Shown here: piece after piece, positions 1 to 12,585 of the stretch
Layout: every line of letters starts with the position of its first letter
Numbering within the stretch: position 1 is the stretch's first letter
Assembly: GCF_014279595.1 (NCBI RefSeq)
Contig: NZ_CP047943.1
Location: forward strand, 1,920,422-1,984,421
DNA from: Synechococcus sp. RS9909
GTDB lineage: Bacteria > Cyanobacteriota > Cyanobacteriia > PCC-6307 > Cyanobiaceae
Reading direction: 5' to 3'
DNA length: 64,000 bases
The notes under the pieces: generated by a model
The model's database searches: none
The model's input: only the letters and a program-made list of their open reading frames with translations
What the model was told of the DNA's origin: nothing
Made by a program: the position numbers and the translations under genes

Positions 1-479
1 CCTCCCTCCAGCAGGCGCATCCCTTCCGGCAGGGCAGGGCCCACAAGCGCAGCAGCCTCGCCACTGATCTGCTGACTCATCTGCTGACTGATCCGCTGCC
101 AGCGACTGGTGGGTGAGGCCGAACGGAACCCCCAGCCGGCGTAATCCTCAATCCGGTTGATCGCGGCTTCCAGACCCACGCAGGGGAGATCGGCGAGATG
201 GTCGAGGGCGTGCTGCCAGAGCTGTCGCCCATACCCCCGCCCCCGGTGCTCAGGCACCACGATGTACAACCCGATGAAGCCGTACGCGAGGTTGTACTTG
301 ACGCCAGCGATGCAGCCAACCGGCTCGCTGCCCAGCCAACCGATCCAGAGCCCCTGACGGTCGGTATGGCGGTAGATCTCCACATCGCCCAGGCCTGGCG
401 CGAAACCCTCACGCCGGGCCCAATCCGTGAGCCGATCCACCTGATTGGGCTGGAGGGGCCGGATCTGCAACGTTGACAT
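1..479 (-). CDS. GNAT-family N-acetyltransferase (C-terminal end outside window)
   Basis: This is the N-terminal part of a GNAT fold enzyme, which moves an acetyl group from acetyl-CoA to an amine on an unknown substrate. The translation begins MSTLQIRPLQ and reaches the diagnostic motif A, EHRGRGYG, at residues 77-84, preceded by the beta-4 strand GLYIVVP. The frame stays open to base 1, so the 3' end is missing from the window. The ATG at 479 is the first in frame and gives the normal GNAT N-terminus. The substrate cannot be told from sequence. Confidence 0.85.
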   Translation of the reverse strand, partial: MSTLQIRPLQPNQVDRLTDWARREGFAPGLGDVEIYRHTDRQGLWIGWLGSEPVGCIAGVKYNLAYGFIGLYIVVPEHRGRGYGRQLWQHALDHLADLPCVGLEAAINRIEDYAGWGFRSASPTSRWQRISQQMSQQISGEAAALVGPALPEGMRLLEG

Positions 480-572
480 CCAACGGCGCCCAAGCGATCA
501 CCCATTCAGGCATGCGCGCACTCAAGCGCACGACCTGCCAGGATTGGTCAAGAAATACAACGCATCATTGAC

Positions 573-680
573 ATGACCACGGAATCTCTTCTCACCCTCA
601 TGCTCGGCTTCGGAGCTGCGGCCACCAGCCTTGCCTTCTGGAAGATCAGCCAGGCTGGATCGAGCTCCAGCGAAGGCTGA
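573..680 (+). CDS. Small single-span membrane peptide, 35 aa
   Basis: A 35-codon frame starts MTTESLLTLM. It has one hydrophobic helix (about residues 5-24) rich in Gly, Ala and Leu, followed by a polar tail with several serines. It lies 29 bp upstream of an HLIP gene on the same strand and may be cotranscribed with it. The size and single helix resemble the small subunits of thylakoid complexes, but I do not recognise it as any named Psa, Psb, Pet or Ndh subunit. It could be a chance frame. The codon use and the position directly before the HLIP gene favour a real gene. Confidence 0.5.
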   Translation: MTTESLLTLMLGFGAAATSLAFWKISQAGSSSSEG

Positions 681-709
681 ATAAGCTCCCAGCATCCGAC
701 CTCGCTCCG

Positions 710-931
710 ATGCCTCCTGATCCTTACCTCTACGAGCCGCTGGAGAGCTTCGGGGAGAGCCTCAGCTCCCGGAAGCCATGGAACACCTCCGCCCTGATCG
801 CAGTTGAGCGACTCAATGGACGTGTCGCCATGCTCGGCTTCGTCGCCGCCCTGATCGGTGAATGGATCAGCGGAGTGGGGCCGGCCGGTCAGGTGATGGC
901 ACTGCTGCGCTGGTATCTCAGCCTCGGGTGA
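710..931 (+). CDS. High-light-inducible protein (HLIP), chlorophyll a/b-binding-like
   Basis: This 73-residue single-helix protein carries the HLIP signature E-R-L-N-G-R-V-A-M-L-G-F at residues 33-44. The Glu and Asn of this motif ligate chlorophyll in the family, and the Arg pairs with a Glu of the partner helix. The rest of the helix (VAALIGEWI) would span the thylakoid membrane. HLIPs bind chlorophyll and carotenoid and protect assembling or damaged photosystems under high light. The stop codon abuts the ATG of the next gene at 932, so the two are probably cotranscribed. A second HLIP gene lies at 42003-42227. Confidence 0.93.
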   Translation: MPPDPYLYEPLESFGESLSSRKPWNTSALIAVERLNGRVAMLGFVAALIGEWISGVGPAGQVMALLRWYLSLG

Positions 932-1411
932 ATGATGCATCCACCCAGCAGCAGTGAGCTGCTCAAGCTTGAGCAACAAGTCCGCCGTGAGGGAACTGGC
1001 ATCAGAAGTTCCGACCTGCAGGGATCCTGGCGCCTACAGAGTGTCTGGTCTCGCAGCGGCACGGAAACCAGCGCTGTCACCAGCTGGATGCTGCGCCTTA
1101 TCAACGCCCGACTGGAACTGAGCGAGACGGGTGATGGATCGCTCTCCATCAGCAACGCGGTGAATCTGGGAGCTCTGGAGCTTCGTTTTCGAGGCATCGC
1201 TCAACTCCATGGCCAACGGCCCCTCTTGCGCTTTCAGTTCGACAACCTCTCCCTGAGCTTCAGCAATCAAACGCTGCTGCAGCGCCCACTCAACCCAACA
1301 ACAGAGCCACGTCGTCAACCCTTTTTTGCCCTGATCCGGCGTGATCCCTCCGGCTGGCTGGCCGCCCGCGGTCGGGGTGGTGGATTGGCGCTTTGGAGCC
1401 TCAAGGGTTGA
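932..1411 (+). CDS. Conserved protein, possibly PAP/fibrillin-like
   Basis: The gene starts directly after the HLIP stop codon (ATGATG, so codon 1 or 2 may be the start) and encodes 159 residues without membrane spans. The order of elements resembles plastid-lipid-associated (fibrillin) domains: an LQGSWRL strand near residue 29, a middle part alternating hydrophobic and polar residues, and a C-terminal GWLAARGRGGG segment. Fibrillins are thylakoid or plastoglobule-associated lipid-binding proteins, which would fit a partnership with an HLIP. The family call is tentative. The 3' end overlaps the convergent PNPOx-like gene by 11 bp. Confidence 0.55.
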   Translation: MMHPPSSSELLKLEQQVRREGTGIRSSDLQGSWRLQSVWSRSGTETSAVTSWMLRLINARLELSETGDGSLSISNAVNLGALELRFRGIAQLHGQRPLLRFQFDNLSLSFSNQTLLQRPLNPTTEPRRQPFFALIRRDPSGWLAARGRGGGLALWSLKG

Positions 1412-1979
1412 GGTGCTGTTCCGGCCAACCCTGATCCCGCAACCAGCAGCGACGGCGATGGGGGTGGGGTTTGAGATCGAGCTGCTCCACCCGCTCCAGT
1501 TGCACTCTGATCAAAGCAAACACGTCCGGCTGGGGGACACCATCAGGGATCTGCTCAGGCCAGGGGCCCTCCGTCTTGAAGGGGCCTCCTGGCTGGGGCC
1601 AGTCCCAGACTGCACGCCCCCGAGGCGTGAGCCGCTGCCAGTGATGCTCAAGGGCCTCGTGATCCTGCTCGCCATCGATGACCCGGGCGAGGCCGCGCAG
1701 ACGAAATTGCTCGCGGGTTTTGCGAAACAGCCAGCACAGTTCCACCCTGGGCTGATGCCGAAGGTCGTTGGGCTTCTCACTGCGCGTATCGGTGAGCAAC
1801 TCCAGCTCCCCTTGGGCACTCCAGCCGCGAAACACCAACGTCCTCACCCGAGGACAGCCCTCCGCGGACACCGTGGCCAGTTGCAGCCAACCAGCCCCAG
1901 GGGCGCGACCCTCCCGTTGCCGAGCGGCACGCAGGAGGGGGCGCCAGGGAGGTAATGCCCCAAGCGCCCCGTCGGCCAT
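1401..1979 (-). CDS. Pyridoxamine-5'-phosphate-oxidase-like flavin protein (Alr4036 type)
   Basis: The protein has the split-barrel FMN-binding fold of the PNPOx family. It contains a WLQLATV strand, PRVRTLVFRGW (typical FMN-contacting segment), a T-D-T-R-S-E-K stretch, and a C-terminal WQRLTPRGRAVWDWP block typical of cyanobacterial Alr4036-like proteins. The substrate is unknown; some relatives reduce flavin or deazaflavin-dependent substrates rather than oxidise pyridoxamine phosphate. I chose the ATG at 1979, which follows the upstream stop codon as TGAGATG. An ATG at 1994 (MQQLE) is an alternative that would overlap the upstream gene by 14 bp. It is almost certainly cotranscribed with the thioredoxin-fold gene at 1981-2721. 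Confidence 0.8.
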   Translation of the reverse strand: MADGALGALPPWRPLLRAARQREGRAPGAGWLQLATVSAEGCPRVRTLVFRGWSAQGELELLTDTRSEKPNDLRHQPRVELCWLFRKTREQFRLRGLARVIDGEQDHEALEHHWQRLTPRGRAVWDWPQPGGPFKTEGPWPEQIPDGVPQPDVFALIRVQLERVEQLDLKPHPHRRRCWLRDQGWPEQHLNP

Positions 1980-1980
1980 C

Positions 1981-2721
1981 TCAAGCTGCTGCATCAGCCT
2001 GCAACCAGGGATCAAGGAACGCCAGGGGCCGATGCATGGTGGCCGAGAAGCCGAGGATCCCCCTATCCCGGTGGACGTAAAGCGGGGAGTCATCGGCAGC
2101 CAACAGAAACGTTCCACCCCGTTGAGTGATGAAACGGTCATCGGGCACATAGGTGCGCCAGCGACGCAACACCTCGTTCATGTTGCGCAAACGCACAGTG
2201 GCCAATTCGAACGGACGCTGAAAGCCATGGCCGCCAGCACGTCGAAAGAGAGCTGCAGGAAACGCTGGCAACACCCCGGTTTCAACCACCGCCTCGTCAT
2301 CGAAGCACTGCGGTGCTCTGCGATCCCCGGTGTAACCACGCACCACCTCAGCCAGCGTTCCGGGCGAACCGATGCCCGCGCACATCAGGAACAAAGCAGG
2401 CCAAGGGCCTCCCGGCAGCTGCAGGCCGGGAGAGCATCCCAGGGCACGATGCAGGGAGGCATCCGCCTCAACCTGAAGTCGTTCGCGGGGGAAGCCTGTG
2501 AAAGCGCAGAAGCGATCGGCGCCGGCGCCGTCTCCAATGGCGATCGCCAGAACCTGGATGCCGACCCGGTCAAGCTGAGGCAGAACCGGCACCAGCGCCT
2601 GGGCGTATTCGAGAGAATCAAAGTCCCCAAGCTGGCTGAGCAGGAGCACGAGTCGGGGTGCCCCAGCTTCCATGCCAGGAACCGCTGCCAGGCGCGACAA
2701 CAACGGCTGCAGATCGATCAT
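1981..2721 (-). CDS. AhpC/TSA-like thioredoxin-fold protein lacking the usual active-site cysteine
   Basis: The 246-residue protein resembles the cyanobacterial AhpC/TSA-like (PRXL2-type) family. It has a strand-helix unit LVLLLSQLGDFDS near residue 25, a second strand IQVLAIAIGDGAGADRF, and a C-terminal block with LRLRNM, WRTYVPDDRFITQRGGTFL and a terminal HRDRGILGFS segment. In true peroxiredoxins the peroxidatic Cys follows the first strand; here that position reads QLGDFDS and no CxxC occurs anywhere. A redox role is therefore doubtful, and a structural or substrate-binding role is possible. The start overlaps the stop of the 54-residue upstream gene (ATGA), which indicates an operon. Confidence 0.7.
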   Translation of the reverse strand: MIDLQPLLSRLAAVPGMEAGAPRLVLLLSQLGDFDSLEYAQALVPVLPQLDRVGIQVLAIAIGDGAGADRFCAFTGFPRERLQVEADASLHRALGCSPGLQLPGGPWPALFLMCAGIGSPGTLAEVVRGYTGDRRAPQCFDDEAVVETGVLPAFPAALFRRAGGHGFQRPFELATVRLRNMNEVLRRWRTYVPDDRFITQRGGTFLLAADDSPLYVHRDRGILGFSATMHRPLAFLDPWLQADAAA

Positions 2722-2882
2722 CCCAGGGGCGGCAGCAACTCAGGCTCCGGGGTCGCCAGGGCTGCACAGGGTTCAACAGCGGCCACGTCAACCTGAAAAG
2801 CGAACTCCTGCAATTCCGCATCCAACTCCAGCAGCATCAGGGCCAACGACTGAGCCAGATCTCTGCTGAAGGTTCGCGACAT
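2718..2882 (-). CDS. Small conserved-looking acidic protein, 54 aa
   Basis: This short frame starts MSRTFSRDLA and contains an amphipathic helix (QSLALMLLELDAELQEF) followed by a proline-rich acidic tail ending PELLPPLG. Its stop overlaps the ATG of the thioredoxin-fold gene by 4 bp, the classic sign of translational coupling. An ATG 12 bases upstream (at 2894) would add four residues. No family is recognised. Confidence 0.55.
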   Translation of the reverse strand: MSRTFSRDLAQSLALMLLELDAELQEFAFQVDVAAVEPCAALATPEPELLPPLG

Positions 2883-2983
2883 GCCAGGTCTCATGCGGGA
2901 CTCATCCCTTGTAGAAGGCCGGCAGCCACCGCCGTGGCTGCCGTCGCAGCTCAAACACAAAACGTGCCGGAGCCGCGGATCGA

Positions 2984-3157
2984 TCACTGGTGCTCTCGCT
3001 GCCAGCGGGTCAGATTCGCTGGAGAAAACCTGTGACCGTGACGGAGCGCAACCTTGGCAACACAGGTGTTGTCGGTGCCGCAGCTCTCCACTTCACGACG
3101 GATCGTGTCGTTGCTTTGAGCCTTGGCGAGGAAGGTCTCCAGTTGTTTCATCGACAT
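2984..3157 (-). CDS. Nif11-domain peptide without a core peptide, 57 aa
   Basis: The peptide MSMKQLETFLAKAQ... follows the Nif11-like leader pattern: an N-terminal helix with F-L-x-K-x-Q, a middle helix with paired polar residues, then A-x-x-x-G-x-x-F-S-x-x-x-L (RHGHRFSPANL). Nif11 domains serve as leader peptides for ribosomally made, modified peptides in cyanobacteria. Here the domain ends with TRWQREHQ, with no double-glycine cleavage site and no Cys/Ser/Thr-rich core. Two cysteines lie inside the domain (C-G-T-D-N-T-C). No lanthipeptide synthetase or peptidase-transporter is nearby. The start was set at MSMK because the upstream extension does not fit the family. Confidence 0.75.
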   Translation of the reverse strand: MSMKQLETFLAKAQSNDTIRREVESCGTDNTCVAKVALRHGHRFSPANLTRWQREHQ

Positions 3158-3714
3158 GGGCAAGCCGGCGATGGGACTCCCCACCGCTAGGCACCAACCC
3201 GTGGGTATGGAGCGACACATCGCTTTTTCTTCGGCTATGGGGCGCTGGGAGCTAATCCCAGAAGCCTGGCCAAGAGGCGCTTAACCCCAGCATGGGCCCC
3301 GTCGAACCGGCGATGTCGACCAACTACGAGATATCAATGCCCGCCCTGGCTTGGGCACCACTCAACGACAGCGGCATAGGTCATGACCCATGAGCCACTG
3401 AAGGAATCGAAAACGAGATAGAGGTGTTCTCAGATGGGGTGAGGGATGACCTTCTGCAACAGCGCGAAGAGAGCAGATGTGAATCGCTGCCTCTAACTGA
3501 CAAAGCTACTGGCGAATTGCCGATCCAGGAACTGAATCCGCTATGCATACAACCCATAAAGCTGCTCACGCCAGTGGCGGGCAGGGTTCAAAAATTCAGG
3601 GTAGTACCGCAGAGGCTAAGTGAGCGATTATGAACAGCAGGCCAACAAGCAAGGACGAACGCATAGACAACACCAAGCGAAGCCGCTAGAAATCCACTAG
3701 CCCTAAACCTCACA
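3158..3714. other. 557-bp stretch with no convincing gene
   Basis: Between the Nif11 peptide and the 904-residue gene I find only short frames without a ribosome binding site or recognisable motif, for example a 69-codon frame at 3424-3633. Base composition falls towards the 3' side, which is rich in AAG, GAA and ATA runs and reads unlike the flanking core genes. The region may hold the promoter of the large gene and eroded remnants of older genes. No inverted repeats or transposase remnants were recognised. Confidence 0.5.
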
Positions 3715-6429
3715 ATGAGCACCATTGCGTGGCCTGAGGATTATGTCACTTCCGATGGCAGCGGCCTCAATACAACAGCACTATTGAGTGATTTCAAGAG
3801 CAGCACAGGCCTCGGAGATCTCACAGAGAATGAGAGAAAGATATTCGATGCGACCCTGGAGGCCACGATCTGGTCCTATCCGCTGAATGAGACCCATAGA
3901 TTATTTTCACTTAATACGATCAGCGAGGCACCCAGAAACAGATTATTTAAACCAGACTATATAACCAGCTGGTTGAACAAAAACTCGACACCGGCACCTG
4001 ATGCGTCTGTGTACTACATGACTGCATGGCTGGATCTCAACCGGATCGACGGCCGGGACCATGGGGAACAGGTTCTGCAACTTCCAGCCAACCCTGATGG
4101 GCTCTATTACATTCTCGCCGTTCTCGATAGCTACATCAACACGAATGGATCTCTTGGCCCCAGGACCGCTGCAGAGATCAATAGCACATCTCCCCAATAC
4201 ATCCTCCTGGCTGGCCCTGACAGCCCTCACTACAAGGGCAGTCACACGACAGTGACGATCGCGGGTAGCAAACTCAACATTCTCCGCATCGACACCCCAC
4301 GAGCCTGGATCACAGCGCGCTTCGCCACGAACACGCTGGATGCAGAAGCCATGGCGGCAACCCGTGCCTTCATCAACGGATCAAGGTCTGAACCAGGTAG
4401 CGGCTTCCAGATCACCACATTAAAGGATTTCAAATCCACAGGAACAGTCCCGCACCGAAGACCAAAACACGAACCCAATGAAGGAATCCGAGTTGAAGTT
4501 GCACGCGATCTATACGGGAGCACTCCACAACGGGCCGAACATTACTTCAAACAAGTATCGGAAGCCCTCACGCTTAATCCCATTCCAGATACCCGCACCA
4601 ATTCCTTTCAACCTCCTGCTTACCAGGTCTGGATCCACAATCAAAACAGTGTTCAGGACCAACAGAAAAACCCCAACACCATCTACCAACCCCCTTCCGC
4701 ACTCTCTTCTCGTCGAAAAAACGATCTCAATGAGCGCTTTGCAGCCATCGGCCTCAATCTAGAAGAGGGCTTTCAGCAGCCTGCCAACTGGACAACACAA
4801 GAGCGCCAGATCTTTCAAGAGTCCTATCGTTTTGCCCTAAATTTTCTCCAAAAAGCTACCGACGACGCTTCCAAGGGCATTCCACTCCTACACCACGGGT
4901 GGCACATCACGAACAACCACATCGGGGTCTATCCCAATACCTGGAAATCGTGGCTAGTCCGCGCCGGGGCCGCCGTGGAAGGGGGAGCGGCCAATATCCC
5001 CAATGACGCTGTTTACCCCACGACGCAGCGCGATAGCGACGGACTTCAGCTCACGAGTACTTACAACTACCGAATCACCCTCCCTGCCACAGCCAATCAA
5101 CAGTCCATCGCAGCATATGCACCGGCTCAGGGTTTCTGGTCATTCACGATTTATCAACCAAACCCCGGAAATGCATACCAGCCCTTCCTGATCGAGAACG
5201 CCATCCAGAACACCGCTTACACACCCATCGATGAGACGGCCACGCTCACAGCCGACGGCAGGATCAAAACGAGTAAGCCACCGAACTGGAATGACAGCAC
5301 TGCCTTAGGAACAGCATTATTAACAGGCAAAGAAAAGCCATCCATTGAGGGAATGGAAAAAGACACGATATATTACGTCTACAGCGCAGAAGAAGTTGGC
5401 AACAGCATCTTACTAAAGCTGGCCTCAGATTATCAGCCTACATATAGCAACGGAATCCCAGTTGGAGGAGAGGGATCACCCACCCAGCCGGTCTCCCTTA
5501 AGGGCTCAGCCGGCAGCACCCTGTCATTTGGTTGGATCAATCCTGTGGCCCAACTCGGTTCCAGCCAACTGCCGGGAGAGACGAATGCAACCACCACACT
5601 TGCCACCGAAAGCGACGGAAGCATCAACCTTCTTCTTTCCAATCTGGCACCAGACACCAACCGGCAGAATTGGCTCCCCACACCTCTGGTCACCAACGCA
5701 GGTTCCGGCCATCCCAGAAAAGCCCATGAATTTGAGGTCATGGCTCGCTACTATTGGCCAACCGAGGGTGATCCCTCCATTCTCGACAAAAAACATTCAC
5801 CAGGATTTTATAAACCTCCAGCAATCGAAAGACTGGGCCTGAATCGCATCAAAACCTGGGATTTACTTTCTCAATCGGCGCGTCAACTCGCCTTGCAAAG
5901 TGACGCCAATTTCGACTCCATTAACCCATTAAACTCGACATCCCCCTTTAACGACGAAGTCGTGGGAGCCCTGCTGGATCTGCGCTTCCTTCCGGACTCC
6001 CTTGAGGGAAGAAAGACCACGGTGAACTACAGCTATTCCCGCAACGCCGACTACACCAATCAACTCTTCTTTTACGCCATTGATGACGTGACTGGCAGCA
6101 TCAATGGTCTCCCACCCTCAGACAGCGAGTACCTCAACGAGGCCTGGTCACGCAGGCTGCAGCCAGACGCGCCGATTGTTGCCGATTTTGATTCCACCAG
6201 CAAAGGATCAATCCAACTCACAGCCGGCCAACTTTTTGCTCCGATCATCAACAACGGCAAAGGCCAGATGTTGACCGCTTTCGACAGTGCCAATGCCAGG
6301 GACTATCGCCATTTCGATCTGCTCAGCGGTAGCAGCTTCGCCTTTGAAGATCTGCTCAATGGCGGCAATGAACATGACCGGAACGACGGCATCTTCACCA
6401 TCACCTCGATCGACCTCTCAGCTCCCTGA
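3715..6429 (+). CDS. 904-aa DUF1254-DUF1214-DUF4114 protein, possibly exported
   Basis: Three domains can be read. Residues about 45-240 resemble DUF1254 (WSYPLNETHRLFSLN, then NPDGLYYILAVLDSY). Residues about 430-580 resemble DUF1214 (TYNYRITLP and APAQGFWSFTIYQPN). Residues about 770-900 resemble DUF4114 (QLFFYAIDDVTGSI ... GGNEHDRNDGIFTI), a domain found at the ends of secreted repeat proteins. There is no N-terminal signal peptide, so a C-terminal type I secretion signal is conceivable. Ordinary DUF1254/DUF1214 proteins are roughly half this length. Codon use is visibly more AT-rich (TTA, ATA, AGA) than in the neighbours, suggesting acquisition. The enzymatic role of the DUF1254/1214 unit is not established. 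The 3' end overlaps the convergent M32 gene by 12 bp. Confidence 0.75.
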   Translation: MSTIAWPEDYVTSDGSGLNTTALLSDFKSSTGLGDLTENERKIFDATLEATIWSYPLNETHRLFSLNTISEAPRNRLFKPDYITSWLNKNSTPAPDASVYYMTAWLDLNRIDGRDHGEQVLQLPANPDGLYYILAVLDSYINTNGSLGPRTAAEINSTSPQYILLAGPDSPHYKGSHTTVTIAGSKLNILRIDTPRAWITARFATNTLDAEAMAATRAFINGSRSEPGSGFQITTLKDFKSTGTVPHRRPKHEPNEGIRVEVARDLYGSTPQRAEHYFKQVSEALTLNPIPDTRTNSFQPPAYQVWIHNQNSVQDQQKNPNTIYQPPSALSSRRKNDLNERFAAIGLNLEEGFQQPANWTTQERQIFQESYRFALNFLQKATDDASKGIPLLHHGWHITNNHIGVYPNTWKSWLVRAGAAVEGGAANIPNDAVYPTTQRDSDGLQLTSTYNYRITLPATANQQSIAAYAPAQGFWSFTIYQPNPGNAYQPFLIENAIQNTAYTPIDETATLTADGRIKTSKPPNWNDSTALGTALLTGKEKPSIEGMEKDTIYYVYSAEEVGNSILLKLASDYQPTYSNGIPVGGEGSPTQPVSLKGSAGSTLSFGWINPVAQLGSSQLPGETNATTTLATESDGSINLLLSNLAPDTNRQNWLPTPLVTNAGSGHPRKAHEFEVMARYYWPTEGDPSILDKKHSPGFYKPPAIERLGLNRIKTWDLLSQSARQLALQSDANFDSINPLNSTSPFNDEVVGALLDLRFLPDSLEGRKTTVNYSYSRNADYTNQLFFYAIDDVTGSINGLPPSDSEYLNEAWSRRLQPDAPIVADFDSTSKGSIQLTAGQLFAPIINNGKGQMLTAFDSANARDYRHFDLLSGSSFAFEDLLNGGNEHDRNDGIFTITSIDLSAP

Positions 6430-7962
6430 CAGCGCCAGCGACAAACGGCTGAGCTTTGCCTCGAGGTAGGCCAGAAACGGCTCGGCCGACAGGGGGCTTC
6501 CACTCACCTGCTCCACCAGCTGCTCCGCATTGAGGGCACGGCCGATCGGATGCACGTGCTCGCGCAACCAGGCGAGCATGCCGCCGAGATCACCACGGGC
6601 GATGTGGTCTTCCGGGGCGCCGATCGCCGCGGTCATCGCTTCACTCAACTGGGCACTGATGAGATGGCCGAGCAGATAGGAGGGGAAGTAACCGAACAAG
6701 CCCTCGCTCCAGTGCACATCCTGCAAACACCCCTCGGCGTCATCAGCGGGCTTGACCCCAAGCAGCTCTTCGTAGCGACGGTTCCATTCCTGCGGCAGAT
6801 CGTCCACTGCCAGCCCCTGCTCCAGCAGGGCCAGCTCCAGATCCGTGCGGATCATGATGTGTAGCCCGTAGCTGAGTTCATCCGCCTCGACGCGATTGCA
6901 GCCCGGCGCCATCGGATTCATCGCCTGCCAAAACTCCCGCGCTGAACCCAGCGGGGCACCCGCCGCCGCAAATCGCTGCCACCAGCGTTCGGCGAAGGGG
7001 AGGCTGCGGGCCACCCGGTTTTCCCAGAACAGCGACTGGCTCTCGTGCACGGCCATCGACGTGGCCTGCCCCAGGGGCCAGGCAAACCACTGATGGCTCG
7101 CGGTGGGCAACCCCTGCTCATAAAGCGAATGCCCCCATTCATGGGCCGTGGCCAGGAAACAGGAGAGGGGCTGACCGGCCACCACCCGGGTGGTGATCCG
7201 GAAATCCCTGGGGCCAAGGGTGATCGAGAACGGATGCGGGGATGCGGCCACGCAGGTGAGCGCCGGATCCTGGCCCCAGTCGGTGAGCAGCTGATCACAG
7301 AGCTGCTGCTGAGTCGCGGCAGGCAGATCCCAACTGAGGGATGTGGGCCTCGGACCGCTGCGCAGCTGATCCAGCAGTTCCGGCAACCGCTTGCGCAAGG
7401 GCGCAAACAACTGCTGAAGTCGCTCCAGGCTGAGATCGGGCTCGAAAGGCTGGGCCAGGGTCTCCCAACAACTGCGCGGTTCCGCCAGCTGGCGGGCCTG
7501 CTCCTGTCGCAGGGCGACCATTCGGGCCAGAGCCGGCGCGAACAGGCTGAAATCGGCGCTGGCTTTGGCCTGCTGCCAGCGGTCGTAGCCCTCAGCCTTG
7601 GCCGTGGCCAGGGCACTGACCAGATCGGGATCGAGGGCCTGCTGGCGGCGCAGATCCTGCTCCAGAAGATCGAGATTGCGGCCGCGGGCCACCAGATCGG
7701 GATTGGCCGCAGCGCCCGCTGCCGCGATGGCGACACGCCAATCCTGCCGAGCTTCGGCGATCAGGTCGGCATAGGAGGCAGCGCTCTGGCGGGCATGGAG
7801 CTGACGCGCCAGCAGGGCCAGCTGCTCACCACGCCAGGCGGCTCCCCCGCTGGGCATGCGTGTGTTCTGATCCCAGTAGAGCGTGCTCTGGATCGAACCG
7901 AGCAGATTGGTTTCCCTCAGATGGCGACCCAGTTGCTCCCAGGCTGTGTCTCCAGCGCCCAT
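6418..7962 (-). CDS. M32 family carboxypeptidase (Taq type)
   Basis: This 514-residue zinc metallopeptidase belongs to family M32, which removes C-terminal residues from peptides in the cytoplasm. The zinc motif HEWGH lies at about residues 273-277, within ATAHEWGHSLYEQGLP, and the third ligand region follows with AVHESQSLFWEN. The N-terminal LLGSIQSTLYWDQNTRMP and the C-terminal DVHWSEGLFGYFPSYLLG segments are family hallmarks. The ATG at 7962 gives the usual M32 start; upstream codons would run into the preceding small gene. Length is normal for the family. Confidence 0.95.
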   Translation of the reverse strand: MGAGDTAWEQLGRHLRETNLLGSIQSTLYWDQNTRMPSGGAAWRGEQLALLARQLHARQSAASYADLIAEARQDWRVAIAAAGAAANPDLVARGRNLDLLEQDLRRQQALDPDLVSALATAKAEGYDRWQQAKASADFSLFAPALARMVALRQEQARQLAEPRSCWETLAQPFEPDLSLERLQQLFAPLRKRLPELLDQLRSGPRPTSLSWDLPAATQQQLCDQLLTDWGQDPALTCVAASPHPFSITLGPRDFRITTRVVAGQPLSCFLATAHEWGHSLYEQGLPTASHQWFAWPLGQATSMAVHESQSLFWENRVARSLPFAERWWQRFAAAGAPLGSAREFWQAMNPMAPGCNRVEADELSYGLHIMIRTDLELALLEQGLAVDDLPQEWNRRYEELLGVKPADDAEGCLQDVHWSEGLFGYFPSYLLGHLISAQLSEAMTAAIGAPEDHIARGDLGGMLAWLREHVHPIGRALNAEQLVEQVSGSPLSAEPFLAYLEAKLSRLSLALSGS

Positions 7963-7972
7963 GCCATGCCCT

Positions 7973-8149
7973 TTAACGGGGCACGTTACGGGTGCGACGG
8001 CGGGCTTGCTGCTCGCTGGTCCAGGCAGCCCAGTGGCGCCACTCCACTTCACTGGCGGGCTGCACAGCGGCCACCAGAGCGTTATCGGTCCAGTAGTCGG
8101 GCGAGTCGAGGGTGCCCAGATGGATCGGGCAGGAGGGTCCGGCTTTCAT
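7973..8149 (-). CDS. Small protein, 58 aa, unknown function
   Basis: A 58-codon frame begins MKAGPSCPIHLG and ends RTRNVPR, 10 bp upstream of the M32 carboxypeptidase start on the same strand. It contains a CPIH motif, two tryptophan-rich segments (YWTDN and WRHWAAW) and a basic tail. There is no signal peptide or membrane span. Position and spacing suggest cotranscription with the peptidase gene. No family recognised. Confidence 0.6.
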   Translation of the reverse strand: MKAGPSCPIHLGTLDSPDYWTDNALVAAVQPASEVEWRHWAAWTSEQQARRRTRNVPR

Positions 8150-8223
8150 GGCAGTTCTTTCGATTGTCTTAAGCTTGGCTCAGCTTGGGACGCATCGGCA
8201 AGGGGTGCAGCCCGCCGCAACCG

Positions 8224-8475
8224 TCAGTCGACCACCTCACCGTCGACGGTGATCTCAAAATCAATGCCGAAGCGGTGGGCGGTGGCGCGAAAACGCCGCG
8301 CCAGCTCGATGAACAGCTTCTTCACCAAGGCATCGTCGAAGTCGTAGATCTCGAGATTGGCCGTCTTGGCCACAGCCTGCAGAGCCTCGATCAGCTTCTC
8401 CACCCGCGGCGCGAACACCTTGCCGAAACGGGCGCGCTTCTCGGCGGCACTATTGAAATCAGGCGTTGCCGCCAT
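8224..8475 (-). CDS. Conserved hypothetical protein, 83 aa
   Basis: From the ATG at 8475 the protein starts MAATPDFNSAAEKRARFGKVF. It is a soluble, mostly helical protein rich in Lys, Arg and Glu, with a central IYDFDDALVKKLF segment and ending in FEITVDGEVVD. Such small cytoplasmic proteins of unknown function are common in picocyanobacteria. It is divergent from the hydrolase gene at 8541, with 65 bp between the starts that must hold both promoters. Function unknown. Confidence 0.65.
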   Translation of the reverse strand: MAATPDFNSAAEKRARFGKVFAPRVEKLIEALQAVAKTANLEIYDFDDALVKKLFIELARRFRATAHRFGIDFEITVDGEVVD

Positions 8476-8540
8476 CGCAGTCGGATTCCTGAGGGATCCG
8501 GGCAGTCTGGTGCACATCCTTCGCCTCGACAGAGCCGCCG

Positions 8541-9455
8541 GTGCCCCTGCCGATCGTCTACCACCCGCGCTACTCGACTCCACTGCCCAGCAGCCATCGC
8601 TTCCCGATGGCGAAATTCCGCCTCCTGCATGACCTGCTGCTGGAACGCGGCTGGATCAGGCCCGATGCGGTGAAACGGCCCGTGAGCATCGCCCGCCGCG
8701 ACCTCGAACGCATTCACGATCGCTCTTATCACCAGGCCTTCAGCCGAGGACAGCTCGGCCGGGCTGAACAACGCCGGATCGGGCTTCCGAACAGCCATGC
8801 CCTAGTGCAACGCACCTGGTTGGCGGTGGGCGGCACCCTGCTGACGGCGCGGCTGGCCTTGCGTCATGGCATCGCCTCCCACCTGGCCGGTGGCACCCAT
8901 CACGCCCATCCCGGCTATGGCAGCGGCTTCTGCATTTTCAACGACTGCGCTGTGACCGCCGCCGTGCTGCTGGCCGAGGGGGCCGTGAAGCGACTGATGG
9001 TGGTGGATCTGGATGTGCACCAGGGCGACGGCACCGCGGCCTGTTTCGCGACGGATCCCAGGGTGTTCACCCTCTCGGTGCACGCCCAGAGCAACTTTCC
9101 GCTCCGCAAGGGCCGCAGTGACCTGGATCTGCCCCTGGCCGACGGCACGGACGATGCGACCTACCTCAGCACGATCGGCGATCGCCTTCCCGATCGGCTC
9201 GACACCGTCCGCCCCGATCTGGTGCTGTACAACGCCGGTGTGGATCCCCACAGAAACGACCGACTCGGGCGCCTGGCTCTCAGCGATGAAGGACTGCTGC
9301 ATCGCGATCGGCTCGTCCTCGATGCCTGCCTGCGCCGCAACATTCCAGTGGCAACGGTGATCGGCGGTGGATATGACGCACTCGAGCCCTTGGTGCAACG
9401 GCACGCCCTGATCATTCGCGCCGCGCTCGAGCAGGCCCGTTTACACGGACTCTGA
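8541..9455 (+). CDS. Histone-deacetylase-family hydrolase
   Basis: This 304-residue protein has the arginase/deacetylase fold shared by histone deacetylases, acetoin-utilisation proteins and polyamine deacetylases. The general base pair HHAH lies at residues 120-123, the zinc ligands in DLDVHQGDGT at 156-165, and a third ligand in NAGVDPH near residue 230; a GGGY motif follows near the end. All catalytic residues appear intact. In bacteria the substrate is usually a small acetylated amine or an acetylated protein lysine; sequence does not decide. The start is a GTG at 8541, giving MPLPIVYHPRYS, the usual N-terminus of this family. Confidence 0.9.
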   Translation: MPLPIVYHPRYSTPLPSSHRFPMAKFRLLHDLLLERGWIRPDAVKRPVSIARRDLERIHDRSYHQAFSRGQLGRAEQRRIGLPNSHALVQRTWLAVGGTLLTARLALRHGIASHLAGGTHHAHPGYGSGFCIFNDCAVTAAVLLAEGAVKRLMVVDLDVHQGDGTAACFATDPRVFTLSVHAQSNFPLRKGRSDLDLPLADGTDDATYLSTIGDRLPDRLDTVRPDLVLYNAGVDPHRNDRLGRLALSDEGLLHRDRLVLDACLRRNIPVATVIGGGYDALEPLVQRHALIIRAALEQARLHGL

Positions 9456-9465
9456 CGGGGGGCGT

Positions 9466-9711
9466 TCATTTTTTGCGGCAGTAGCCGCCTCCCACATTCA
9501 TCCAGCCACTCGGGCAGGCCTTGCCGTTGGTGGGCTGCACCGTGTAGCTCATCACACCCAGGGTGCTGCACTTGCCGTTGAAGGTGTCGACATACCCCAT
9601 CGGGCAGAGGTCGGCGATCTTGGGAACCACCCGCTGCGCCCGCGCCGAAGCAAACACAGAGGCAAGGCCGACGCCGACCAGCACAAGAGCGAGATTGCTT
9701 GGGCTCTTCAC
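9466..9711 (-). CDS. Small secreted protein with duplicated Cys motif, 81 aa
   Basis: A GTG start gives MKSPSNLAL..., a hydrophobic signal peptide with a likely cleavage after ASARA (residue 25). The mature part holds four cysteines in two similar units: C-P-M-G-Y...N-G-K-C and C-P-S-G-W...G-G-Y-C. Each unit would form a short disulfide loop in the periplasm or outside the cell. The protein ends with basic residues (RKK). It converges on the deacetylase-like gene, with 10 bp between the stops. No function is known to me. Confidence 0.7.
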
Positions 9712-9767
9712 ACCAGGCTGGGCGCAACGGCTTCAAGATTAAGGCTGAGATCCCGACAGACACAGCC

Positions 9768-10058
9768 ATGCTTGCCACCCTGCTGAGCCCTGAGGAGCGT
9801 GCGGCCCTGCGCACGGAGCTGCCCCTCTGGGCTGTGGTGGACGGACAGCTGGAACGGCGCTGGCAGTTCAGAGACTTCAACGAAGCCTGGGGCTTCATGA
9901 GCCGGGTGGCGCTCTTGGCTGAGGCGATGAACCATCACCCCGACTGGAGCAATGTGTACGCCACGGTGACGATCCGGCTGCACACCCACGATCTGGGAGG
10001 ACTGTCGACTCTCGATGTGGAGCTGGCGCAAGCGATCGATCGGCTCACGCCAGCCTGA
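9768..10058 (+). CDS. phhB: Pterin-4a-carbinolamine dehydratase
   Basis: The 96-residue protein has the family signature around the active-site histidines, N-H-H-P-D-W at 55-60 and T-H-D at 73-75. It dehydrates 4a-hydroxytetrahydropterin during recycling of tetrahydrobiopterin. Members in bacteria without phenylalanine hydroxylase are thought to act in other pterin pathways such as molybdopterin or folate. The ATG at 9768 yields the usual compact length. It lies 60 bp upstream of a COG0523 GTPase on the same strand. Confidence 0.9.
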
Positions 10059-10118
10059 CGCCCCGCACTCGCACCTGCCAGCATGGAGAGCTGTGGCCTG
10101 GCCTTCCCCGAATCGACC

Positions 10119-11222
10119 ATGACAGCCTCTACGACCAGCGGCGTTCCGGTGACCATCCTCACCGGCTTTCTGGGGGCCGGCAAAACCACCCTTCTGAATC
10201 ACATCCTCAGCAATCAAGACGGCGTCAAGACCGCCGTTCTGGTGAATGAATTCGGCGAGATCGGCATCGACAACGACCTGGTGGTGAGCACCGGTGACGA
10301 CATGGTGGAGCTGAGCAACGGCTGCATCTGTTGCTCGATCAACGGAGAACTGTTGGACGCGGTGGATCGCATCCTGGAGCGTCCGGACCCCATCGACTAC
10401 CTGGTCGTGGAAACCACGGGTCTGGCGGATCCACTCCCAGTGGCCATGACGTTTCTGGGCAGCGAGCTGCGGGATCAGACCCGGCTCGACTCGATCATCA
10501 CGCTCATCGACGCGGAGAATTTCGGTGCGGAGGTGCTCGAGACCGAAGTGGGCCGCTCGCAGGTGATCTACGGCGACATCCTGCTGCTCAACAAGACCGA
10601 TCTGGTGAGCGAAGAACGGCTGCAGGCGATTGAAGCCAGCCTGAAAGAGGTGAAGCAGGACGCCCGCATCCTGCGCGCTGTGAAAGGCGGTGTGCCGCTG
10701 CCCCTGCTCCTGAGCGTGGGGCTGTTCGAATCCGATCGGGTGGTGAACGCTGCCGATGATCCCAGCCTCGATCACAGCGCCTGCGACCACGACCATGGCC
10801 ACTGCAGCCATGACCACGAAGGCGACCAGGGGCACAACCATCACCATGGGCACAGTCATGAGCATGGACACAGTCATGACCATGGGCACAGCCATGATGC
10901 TGGCGACCATCTGGCGATCGAGGGGTTCACCTCTCTGTCCTTCAGCAGTGATGGGCCCTTCGCCCTGCGCAAATTTCAGAATTTCCTCGACAATCAGTTG
11001 CCGGCCTCCGTGTTCCGGGCCAAGGGCATCCTCTGGTTCAACGAAAGTGAACGCCGCCACGTGTTTCATCTGGCCGGCAAACGCTTCTCGATCGATGACA
11101 GTGACTGGCCTGGCGCCCGCAAGAACCAGCTGGTGCTGATCGGCCGTGATCTGGATCACGCCACCCTGCGCCGGCAACTCCAGGCCTGCGTGGCCAAGGA
11201 CGCCGGCCAGGGGTTCGCCTGA
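10119..11222 (+). CDS. COG0523 (CobW/YjiA/Zng1-like) metal-chaperone GTPase with His-rich stretch
   Basis: The 367-residue protein has a Walker A GFLGAGKTT at 16-24, the metal-binding C-x-C-C motif (GCICC, residues 68-72), a Walker B-like VETTGLADP and the guanine-specificity motif NKTD. Residues about 217-264 form a very His/Asp-rich linker with repeated G-H-S-H units, typical of zinc-handling members. A CobW C-terminal domain follows. COG0523 proteins deliver zinc or other metals to client enzymes. The nearby phhB encodes a known genomic companion of this family. No CobN or other late B12 gene is adjacent, so a zinc role is more likely than cobalt. I chose the ATG at 10119; a longer start at 10083 lacks family support. 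Confidence 0.88.
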   Translation: MTASTTSGVPVTILTGFLGAGKTTLLNHILSNQDGVKTAVLVNEFGEIGIDNDLVVSTGDDMVELSNGCICCSINGELLDAVDRILERPDPIDYLVVETTGLADPLPVAMTFLGSELRDQTRLDSIITLIDAENFGAEVLETEVGRSQVIYGDILLLNKTDLVSEERLQAIEASLKEVKQDARILRAVKGGVPLPLLLSVGLFESDRVVNAADDPSLDHSACDHDHGHCSHDHEGDQGHNHHHGHSHEHGHSHDHGHSHDAGDHLAIEGFTSLSFSSDGPFALRKFQNFLDNQLPASVFRAKGILWFNESERRHVFHLAGKRFSIDDSDWPGARKNQLVLIGRDLDHATLRRQLQACVAKDAGQGFA

Positions 11223-11292
11223 GATTCCGATGCAACAGGCACAGGCGAAAGGGCTCTGAGGTGATTAGGGTGACGGTTCAACGGGAGAGAGC

Positions 11293-11442
11293 ATGGTTGA
11301 AGTTCTCGCGGCAAGCACGCTTCTGACCGTGCTGGGGCTGGCCCTCTGGTTTCTGGCAGATTCCGATGACGACAACAGCGGCGGCGGCCTGATGGAACCC
11401 GCCCTGGTGCCGGTCCCTGTGCGGCATCAGGGCCGCTCCTGA
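11293..11442 (+). CDS. Small membrane protein, 49 aa
   Basis: A 49-codon frame starts MVEVLAASTL, contains one hydrophobic helix (residues 4-21) and then an acidic DSDDDN cluster followed by a glycine-rich and proline/valine tail. It sits between the metal chaperone gene and a clear terminator, so it is likely the end of that transcript or its own unit. Function unknown; the organisation (short helix plus acidic linker) is that of many thylakoid or plasma-membrane micropeptides. Confidence 0.6.
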   Translation: MVEVLAASTLLTVLGLALWFLADSDDDNSGGGLMEPALVPVPVRHQGRS

Positions 11443-11464
11443 GCAGGCCTTCGTGACTTCGCAA

Positions 11465-11487
11465 CCCCGCGAAAGCGGGGTTTTTTT
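11465..11487 (+). terminator. Rho-independent terminator
   Basis: A perfect 6-bp GC stem (CCCCGC/GCGGGG) with a GAAA tetraloop is followed by seven T residues. It ends the cobW-side transcript and insulates the iron transporter genes that start 60 bp further on. Confidence 0.92.
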
Positions 11488-11514
11488 AATGCCCACCCAC
11501 AGACGGCGAGCTAT

Positions 11515-11529
11515 TGCGTATCATTCTCA
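11515..11529. promoter_or_regulatory. Possible Fur box upstream of futA
   Basis: Read on the minus strand the site is TGAGAATGATACGCA, which matches about 10 of 14 informative bases of the 7-1-7 Fur consensus, with the left half-site nearly perfect. It lies 18 bp before the futA start codon, the expected place for repression by Fe-Fur. A chance match is possible given the weak right half. Confidence 0.45.
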
Positions 11530-11547
11530 GGCAATCGCCGCTCGCAA

Positions 11548-12585
11548 ATGCGGATCACTCGCAAAACCGCCGGTCGGAATGCCGGCCTGCTCGCCCTGCT
11601 CCTGGCATCGTCCGGCCTGCTCGCCGCCTGCACCACATCGGGCCGCCAAGAGATCGGCGTCTACTCCGGACGGCATTACAACACCGACAAGGCGCTTTAC
11701 GAGCAGTTCACAGCCGAAACCGGCATCAAGGTGAAGCTGCTGGAAGCCAAAGACGATGCCCTGATTGAGCGACTGCGCAATGAGGGCAGCAACTCGCCCG
11801 CCGACGTGTTGATCCTGGCCGACGCGGCGCGACTGGACCGCGCCGCCGACCTCGACCTGTTTCAAACCGTGGATTCAGCCGCGCTGGAAGCGGCTGTGCC
11901 AAGCGATCTGCGCGATCCAAACAACCGCTGGTTTGGCCTGACCCGGCGCCTGCGCGCGCCGATCATCAACCCTGCCCAGGTCACCCCCACCGAGGTGAAC
12001 AGCTACCGCAAGTTGGCGGACCCGGCCCTGCAAGGGCGACTCTGTCTGCGCAACCGTCGCAGCGTCTACAACCAGTCGTTGGTGGCCTTCATGATTGATC
12101 GCGTAGGGGAAGAGGCCACCGCCGACTGGATCAAAGGGATGGTGGCGAATCTCGCTCAGCCGATGTTCAGCAGCGACACGCCGATGATCCGCGCCGTTGC
12201 TCAGGGAAAATGCGGCGTCGCCCTGGCCAACACCTACTACCTGGGCCGTCTGCAGGCTGGGAAAAAAGGCGAAGAAGACCGCGCGCTCTCAAGCAAGGTG
12301 GCTGTGGTTTGGCCCGACCCAGTGCACGTCAACATCACCGGTGGCGGCGTTACCAGCAGCAGCTCGCGTCCCAAGGCGGCCCAACAATTCCTGGAATTTC
12401 TCGTCTCCAACAAATCCCAGGGGGGCTATGCCGCCGCGAACCATGAATACCCTTTGCGGGGCTTCGGCAATGATCCGATCGTGAGCGCCTGGGGACCGTT
12501 CCAGCAGGCGGACGTGTCGGCCGCCCGGCTCGGCGAACTGAACGGCAAGGCCCTCGATCTGATGACAGCCAACGGCTGGCAATGA
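11548..12585 (+). CDS. futA: Iron(III) ABC transporter substrate-binding lipoprotein
   Basis: This 345-residue protein binds ferric iron outside the inner membrane and passes it to the FutB permease. Residues 1-28 form a lipoprotein signal with lipobox LAAC (Cys28). The mature part starts with the family strand EIGVYSGRHYNTD, and the tyrosine pair of the iron site occurs in NTYYLGR near residue 230. It ends NDPIVSAWGPFQ..., like IdiA/FutA proteins. The stop overlaps the futB ATG by 4 bp. No ATPase gene (futC) is adjacent, as is common in cyanobacteria where it lies elsewhere. Confidence 0.93.
   Translation: MRITRKTAGRNAGLLALLLASSGLLAACTTSGRQEIGVYSGRHYNTDKALYEQFTAETGIKVKLLEAKDDALIERLRNEGSNSPADVLILADAARLDRAADLDLFQTVDSAALEAAVPSDLRDPNNRWFGLTRRLRAPIINPAQVTPTEVNSYRKLADPALQGRLCLRNRRSVYNQSLVAFMIDRVGEEATADWIKGMVANLAQPMFSSDTPMIRAVAQGKCGVALANTYYLGRLQAGKKGEEDRALSSKVAVVWPDPVHVNITGGGVTSSSSRPKAAQQFLEFLVSNKSQGGYAAANHEYPLRGFGNDPIVSAWGPFQQADVSAARLGELNGKALDLMTANGWQ

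Follow-up and report, generated by a model that had tools for sequence, protein, structure and literature searches.

The gene P0001 was found at positions 3715–6429 of a 64,000-nucleotide stretch of the Synechococcus sp. RS9909 genome (contig NZ_CP047943.1), which is referred to as the window. The gene encodes a 904-residue protein, in which the DUF1254 and DUF1214 domains are followed by a C-terminal module containing DUF4114, and it is proposed that this module may act as an export tail. The following features were assigned, with positions counted in the window:

3715–6429, + strand: P0001, a 904-residue DUF1254-DUF1214-DUF4114 protein (open reading frame and Pfam; relatives in genus genomes)
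3982–4386, + strand: DUF1254 domain, residues 90–224, in which the N-x-D-T signature reads D-A-S-V at residues 96–99 (Pfam, column comparison)
5008–5268, + strand: first part of DUF1214, Pfam stretch 432–518, profile positions 2–76 of 112, its end running into the insert (Pfam)
5212–5610, + strand: beta-rich insert within DUF1214, approximately residues 500–632, confined to the P0001 family among the loci examined (sequence comparison, AlphaFold)
5599–5763, + strand: last part of DUF1214, approximately residues 629–683, profile positions 67–111 of 112 (Pfam on the fragment, 26.3 bits against a cut-off of 25)
5938–6426, + strand: C-terminal module of about 160 residues (742–904), which includes DUF4114 and also forms the end of many other genus proteins (BLAST, profile comparison, module tree)
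6256–6405, + strand: Pfam stretch of DUF4114, residues 848–897, sub-threshold (Pfam)
3237–6418, no strand: 3182-bp segment absent from the close relative G018, comprising the gene minus its last 11 bases and 478 bp upstream (genome comparison)

The open reading frame reported in a preliminary description of this DNA was found to be real, and it was not considered a chance frame because of its Pfam domains, its relatives at 45–63% identity and a ratio of nonsynonymous to synonymous substitution rates (dN/dS) of 0.18–0.27 by segment. The latter range was obtained for the pair G021–L029 (0.22 overall), while 0.33 was calculated for G025–G016; the P0001 family is under purifying selection. The three domains named in the same description were recovered with unequal strength. 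P0001 scored 38.8 bits against PF06863 (DUF1254, cut-off 22.2) and 49 bits against PF06742 (DUF1214, cut-off 25), the latter in two stretches covering profile positions 2–76 and 67–111, and a search of NCBIfam with P0001 returned no match. PF13448 (DUF4114) gave only 15.4 bits with the whole chain and 19.2 bits with the C-terminal fragment, below the cut-off of 27. The DUF4114 label was nevertheless judged right, because residues 746–900 matched a protein of the same genome, L077 (at 776068; 34% identity by BLAST, E = 2.8e-12), which itself scored 36.3 bits, and because the relative P0005 reached 26.6 bits, the best score among the relatives scanned.

The module was further surveyed in 31 genomes of the genus. 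DUF4114 was detected in 17 of them, over the cut-off in 15; this survey missed two P0001 family members, in G025 and G028, which were added to the module tree by hand. The set used below consisted of 69 proteins, that is, 73 matches minus five (two fragments and three giant frames of G007) plus one weaker match from the RS9909 genome. The module formed the end of the chain, with no more than 18 residues after it, in 65 of the 69 proteins, whose frames were read as 226–5646 residues. Outside the genus, 17 of the 18 loci fetched ended in the motif, L214 being the remaining one. When sorted by BLAST of the remainder of the chain, the 69 proteins fell into 18 clusters. A Pfam scan of 17 of these proteins gave a named partner domain in nine and none in eight, the partners being DUF4347 together with immunoglobulin-like and cadherin domains (L085), DUF4347 (L120), beta-helix, tyrosinase, multicopper oxidase, Peptidase_S8, Peptidase_C11, Big_12 and DUF1254-DUF1214. 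It was also observed that the module occurred more than once in single chains of L188 and L190 from other cyanobacterial families, and L187 and L208 may be similar.

The N-termini were assayed by a home-made hydrophobicity rule in place of SignalP, which was applied to all in-frame starts and in the same way to both protein sets. Six of the DUF4114 proteins had open upstream frames and were excluded. A Sec-like N-terminus was recorded for one of the remaining 63 proteins versus 21 of 29 standard DUF1254 proteins; L068 among the 21 was probably false, since the segment lay inside the domain, and L040, L050, L051 and L064 fell just under the threshold. The earlier claim that P0001 lacks an N-terminal signal was confirmed under this heuristic: the best value was 0.54 against a threshold of 1.9, and no candidate with a preceding K/R was found over the in-frame starts. 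The DUF4114 proteins were also acidic, with a median isoelectric point (pI) of 4.21 versus 6.02 for the standard DUF1254 proteins and 5.82 for neighbouring genes, and with 3.3% basic residues in the last 60 positions (median) versus 8.3% and 11.7%, respectively. P0001 itself had a pI of 5.21 and contained no cysteine.

A genome search for an exporter had been suggested in the preliminary description, and exporter genes were present in the RS9909 genome, where genes for a PpiC-type protein, an ATP-binding cassette (ABC) protein and an HlyD protein adjoin one another and TolC-type proteins are encoded as well. The HlyD protein fell below the TIGR01843 cut-off and passed Pfam HlyD_3. The genome thus holds the ABC, HlyD and TolC set required for type I secretion, and the DUF4114 set shows the features of type I substrates, namely a C-terminal, partner-independent module without a Sec signal. 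The exporter was found in all seven genomes holding the P0001 family. A correlation between exporter and DUF4114 across the genus was considered and dropped as uninformative, given how widespread the exporter was. In G004, G009 and G029 a DUF4114 gene was located about 9–10 kb from the exporter.

The same combination of domains was found once more in the genus. The protein L155 of G002 (1016 residues) contained DUF1254, DUF1214 and DUF4114 and, similarly to P0001, no Sec-like N-terminus. Unlike P0001, its DUF1214 was in one stretch (profile positions 2–111), with 41–46 residues between the two halves in the L155 group, and its module came from a different branch. The L155 core was shared with proteins of G090, G007, G013 and G030 (L196–L199, open frames of 814–881 residues), which had no DUF4114. 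In a core tree of 41 rows, the P0001 and L155 groups were sisters (support 99/98), both on long branches, and L155 was nested within its group. In a module tree of 84 rows, the L155 module was grouped with modules from other genera of the family, and a tree in which it was held together with the modules of the P0001 family was rejected by the approximately unbiased (AU) test (p-AU = 0.00012). Based on this rejection and on the tailless relatives of the L155 core, it was concluded that at least two gains of the module took place, from different branches; that in the L155-type protein is independent. The occurrence of one core with a tail (L155) and without it (the four relatives) supported the tail hypothesis. 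As a side observation, the C-terminal tails of L196–L199 differed from that of L155, and three of the four ended in a shared MDYYSF-ELL motif.

The genuine anomaly of P0001 is its split DUF1214, which was missed in the preliminary description. There, a spacing of about 300 residues between the DUF1254 and DUF1214 motifs was regarded as unusual; this was not upheld, since the LDL and FW motifs lay 268–313 residues apart in 29 standard proteins (28 cyanobacterial and one alphaproteobacterial) versus 361–376 in the seven P0001 family members. The two halves of DUF1214 were separated by 150–161 residues in the seven members versus 23–27 in the 29 standard proteins, hence the domain carries an insert of about 125–135 residues and is not continuous in this family. 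Of the 31 genomes of the genus, only the seven that hold the family contained the insert, besides a marginal match in G008 (E = 0.04). AlphaFold modeling of the insert (window 5200–5628, three sequences) gave a beta-rich fold with a predicted local distance difference test score (pLDDT) of 71.3 for the best of five models, reaching about 85 across most of residues 8–113, while the other four models scored 60, 38, 36 and 34. The insert was therefore taken as a predicted beta-domain, at moderate model confidence. A Foldseek search of the model against PDB produced no match (best E = 0.31). Against a viral library, the ten best matches had probabilities of 0.72–1.00 and E values of 0.008–0.09, none at or below 0.001; two of these ten were named tail fibre, one of them from a cyanophage. 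No sequence similarity of the insert was detected in phages (tblastn) or PHROGs, and the likeness to phage proteins is suggestive, to be used as a lead only. A model of the full chain was discarded, as its mean pLDDT was 30.6 from a 4-row alignment.

The core was compared with the standard proteins by columns, an invariant column being one conserved in at least 85% of 27 standard DUF1254 proteins (L031 and L051 were excluded). P0001 kept 27 of 45 invariant columns versus 44 of 296 less conserved ones, and the residues kept included Y101, D107, R202, W396, Y434, D440, Y452, W475, Y480, N652, W653, R678 and Y680, among others. The N-x-D-T signature was strongly conserved in the 27 standard proteins (N in 27, D in 23 and T in 27) and was absent from the P0001 family, where [DN]-A-S-V was found in its place. 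We know of no established active site of DUF1254, so a loss of activity cannot be judged from this change. Matches to DUF1254 were also seen to crowd together in G021 (eight matches), G024, G009, G029 and other genomes, in frames of about 525 and 380–400 residues.

The comparison with G018 pointed to a recent event, which was also missed in the preliminary description. The flanks of the 3182-bp segment were about 91–92% identical between the two genomes, and the counterparts of window 2–3236 and of 6419 onward lay three bases apart in G018. No clear target duplication was found at this empty site, and the repeats detected there did not mark the ends of the segment. P0001 ended in ...SIDLSAP and its nearest relatives, those of G022, G025 and G028, in ...SIDL; other C-terminal ends were found in the more distant G004 and G021, and the codons for SAP and the stop, minus the first base, lay in DNA also present in G018. 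An insertion in RS9909 was favored over a deletion in G018 because the SAP end of P0001 is encoded by this common flank. A recent acquisition as a single-gene cassette is thus the probable history of the gene. The G+C content of the gene was 0.526 versus 0.646 for the window and was even across core, insert and module (0.50–0.55), from which it follows that the gene either came as a unit or has since been evened out. Nothing upstream of the other members of the family matched window 3237–3714 (478 bp), and promoter-like sites in it did not exceed chance expectation; neither a promoter nor a terminator above chance was detected, and no transfer RNA gene was found in window 1–12000. A second difference from G018 was noted at window 17373, where about 775 bp present in G018 (L224, 4190–4965) were absent.

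Full-length relatives of P0001 were distributed over seven of the 31 genus genomes, RS9909 included, with one cut by a contig end; the six others held a relative at 45–63% identity, five of them full length. The same seven genomes were recovered from 400 genomes of the taxonomic family at E 1e-20, i.e., from one of 59 genera. In a phylum sample, 42 of 386 genomes matched the family profile, full length in two, both of the genus; the other matches corresponded to the C-terminal module, except for four partial matches to the core. DUF1254 (PF06863) was present in at least 32 of these 386 genomes, in a survey that missed the RS9909 gene. A wider scan of genome contigs gave no match with P0001 alone and three loci with the family alignment. 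One locus, L029, lies on a contig assigned to a Phycisphaerae MAG (PAFA01000068.1) and holds a gene closely related to that of G021; an origin in Phycisphaerae was rejected, as its gene order was that of G004 and G021, and the contig is probably a misbinned cyanobacterial one. No relative was found in viral contigs or phages, and three plasmid records gave partial matches only. The family had no conserved gene partners and occupied three different genomic contexts. Judging by their translations, these presumably comprise clpP/clpP/ilvC/cobD in G004, G021 and L029, and a flavin adenine dinucleotide (FAD) enzyme with a short-chain dehydrogenase/reductase (SDR) in G022, G025 and G028; further neighbours, read in the same way and not identified by search, were taken to be a ggt-like gene and an M32 peptidase.

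Standard DUF1254-DUF1214 proteins, which we take to be the family COG5361, have the same two Pfam domains in the same order as P0001 and share with it the 27 kept invariant columns. P0001 differs from them by its N-terminus without a Sec-like segment, the split DUF1214, the added module and the changed N-x-D-T. A solved relative, 3u07 (VPA0106), was found by the A1 profile (E = 8.6e-4, profile positions 45–153). The available text of published reports places DUF1254/DUF1214 proteins as entries in Fur, NnrR and Listeria expression lists (PMC3751524, PMC6710368, PMC12791056) and among neighbours of prokaryotic Argonautes (PMC6299218), and for a Malassezia homologue a role as a secreted glycosyl hydrolase was predicted by homology modeling, according to the available part of that paper (PMC4634964). 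Other DUF4114 proteins of the genus resemble P0001 in their C-terminal module and missing signal, differing in cargo, and the DUF4114 protein sll0723 of Synechocystis is described in the accessible text as Zur-regulated (PMC12058595). The literature searched contained no paper combining two of DUF4114, DUF1254 and DUF1214, and none joining DUF4114 with "type I secretion". The architecture had been presented as new to picocyanobacteria; it remains unmatched in that literature, but it is present in seven genus genomes and in an independent version in G002. Overall, it is a variant of a known family within what looks like a set of tail-swapping proteins.

We proposed that P0001 is a Sec-independent exoprotein and that its DUF4114 module is a tail for export and calcium-dependent attachment, probably for the PpiC/ABC/HlyD type I operon; roughly even odds (about 0.5) were given to this reading. 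A C-terminal export tail was favored because of the end position of the module, the rarity of Sec-like N-termini and the presence of exporter genes with TolC in the genome. The chain would be made in the cytosol without a Sec signal, recognized by its C-terminus and threaded unfolded through the PpiC/ABC/HlyD and TolC machinery. Folding would follow once the protein is outside, and calcium held by the DUF4114 motif may stabilize it there. The module may further hold the protein to surface polysaccharide, by analogy with PilY1.1 of Myxococcus xanthus, and the core would act outside, perhaps on carbohydrate. A review, as far as its available text goes, describes RTX proteins as carrying an uncleaved C-terminal signal and leaving independently of Sec (PMC3034196). 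P0001 would have both traits in common with RTX and other type I substrates such as SwmA if its predicted export is true, whereas it lacks the RTX nonapeptides. In a tentative extension, the module of about 160 residues could be an unrecognized, RTX-free cyanobacterial export domain that is mobile between genes and replaces Sec signals (twice in the DUF1254-DUF1214 lineage, from different branches), so that a whole set of exoenzymes and adhesins would leave by one shared type I exporter.

Several results weighed against this proposal. The preliminary description had suggested a type I export tail, and the position of the module and the missing Sec signals agreed with that; however, RTX repeats (GGxGxDxUx nonapeptide) were lacking from all five family members and all 62 DUF4114 proteins searched, and no operon linkage was seen, other genes, housekeeping by reading of their translations, intervening in G004 and G009. 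The exporter was found in 28 of the 31 genus genomes whether DUF4114 was present or not, and G013, a genome only 70% complete, had DUF4114 and no exporter match. The Sec rule is a heuristic; when the K/R demand was dropped, three proteins of the 641-residue cluster reached 1.88, just under the threshold. Four of the 69 proteins departed from the C-terminal position: in two multicopper-oxidase-like ones the module lies close to the N-terminus, and in two more it is followed by 45 and 63 residues, the latter in a frame that runs off the stretch. The first aspartate of the putative calcium site was missing in P0001, where the motif reads GGNEHDRND and is GGGDxDFND-like in other members. Standard DUF1254 proteins were also low in cysteine, and the changed N-x-D-T suggests that the core activity may be altered or lost. 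Export of P0001 and its recognition by a type I system are both predicted from sequence features.

Alternatively, the module may be an extracellular calcium- and glycan-binding attachment domain rather than an export signal, with export by another Sec-independent route; this was considered rather unlikely. The available text on Myxococcus PilY1.1 describes a DUF4114 with a predicted calcium site, as in P0001, lying on the N-terminal side of the PilY1 domain of a type IV pilus protein (PMC9109919, PMC13190605); a D498A change at that site abolished colony-level motility while active pili were still assembled (PMC9109919, PMC13190605), and DUF1254 or DUF1214 is not mentioned in the available excerpt (PMC9109919). 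The two multicopper-oxidase-like proteins with an N-terminal module fit this explanation, as do the chitinases without signals in Synechococcus exoproteomes, which the accessible part of that study lists as predicted to be non-classically secreted (PMC4949707). However, this explanation does not account for the C-terminal position in 65 of 69 proteins, nor for the 62 of 63 proteins that have no Sec-like N-terminus. The corresponding N-terminal cases, L118 (G002) and L119 (G022), are 1744 and 1748 residues long, and multicopper-oxidase domains were identified in L119.

A different possibility concerns the core, which could be a degenerate scaffold in a structural or adhesive surface protein rather than an enzyme. 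Both tailed lineages have an altered N-x-D-T signature, 18 of the 45 invariant columns are not kept, the insert model is weakly similar to phage proteins and some partners of the module are adhesin-like. Nevertheless, the polar invariants R202, D440, N652 and R678 are among the residues kept, and the dN/dS of the core (0.22) is similar to that of the remainder of the protein, so a scaffold was held to be improbable. That P0001 stays in the cytosol, with a tail of no targeting role, would agree with its missing N-terminal signal and with support for export that is sequence-based, but the standard members of the family mostly have Sec-like signals, the partners recognized in nine of the 17 scanned proteins are mostly of exoenzyme or adhesin types and the tail proteins are acidic; a cytosolic protein was thus regarded as very unlikely.

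To our knowledge, the exit route of picocyanobacterial exoproteins without signals is poorly understood. A C-terminal module common to 18 clusters of cargo provides a single testable hypothesis for their export, and the DUF1254 set, with Sec-type proteins, tailed proteins and one core with and without a tail, represents a natural experiment. That DUF1254-DUF1214 is joined to a probable surface tail speaks for a role of this family outside the cytoplasm, in line with the Malassezia prediction (PMC4634964, available part). If the proposal is true, it would allow proteomes to be screened for exported proteins overlooked by signal-peptide predictors.

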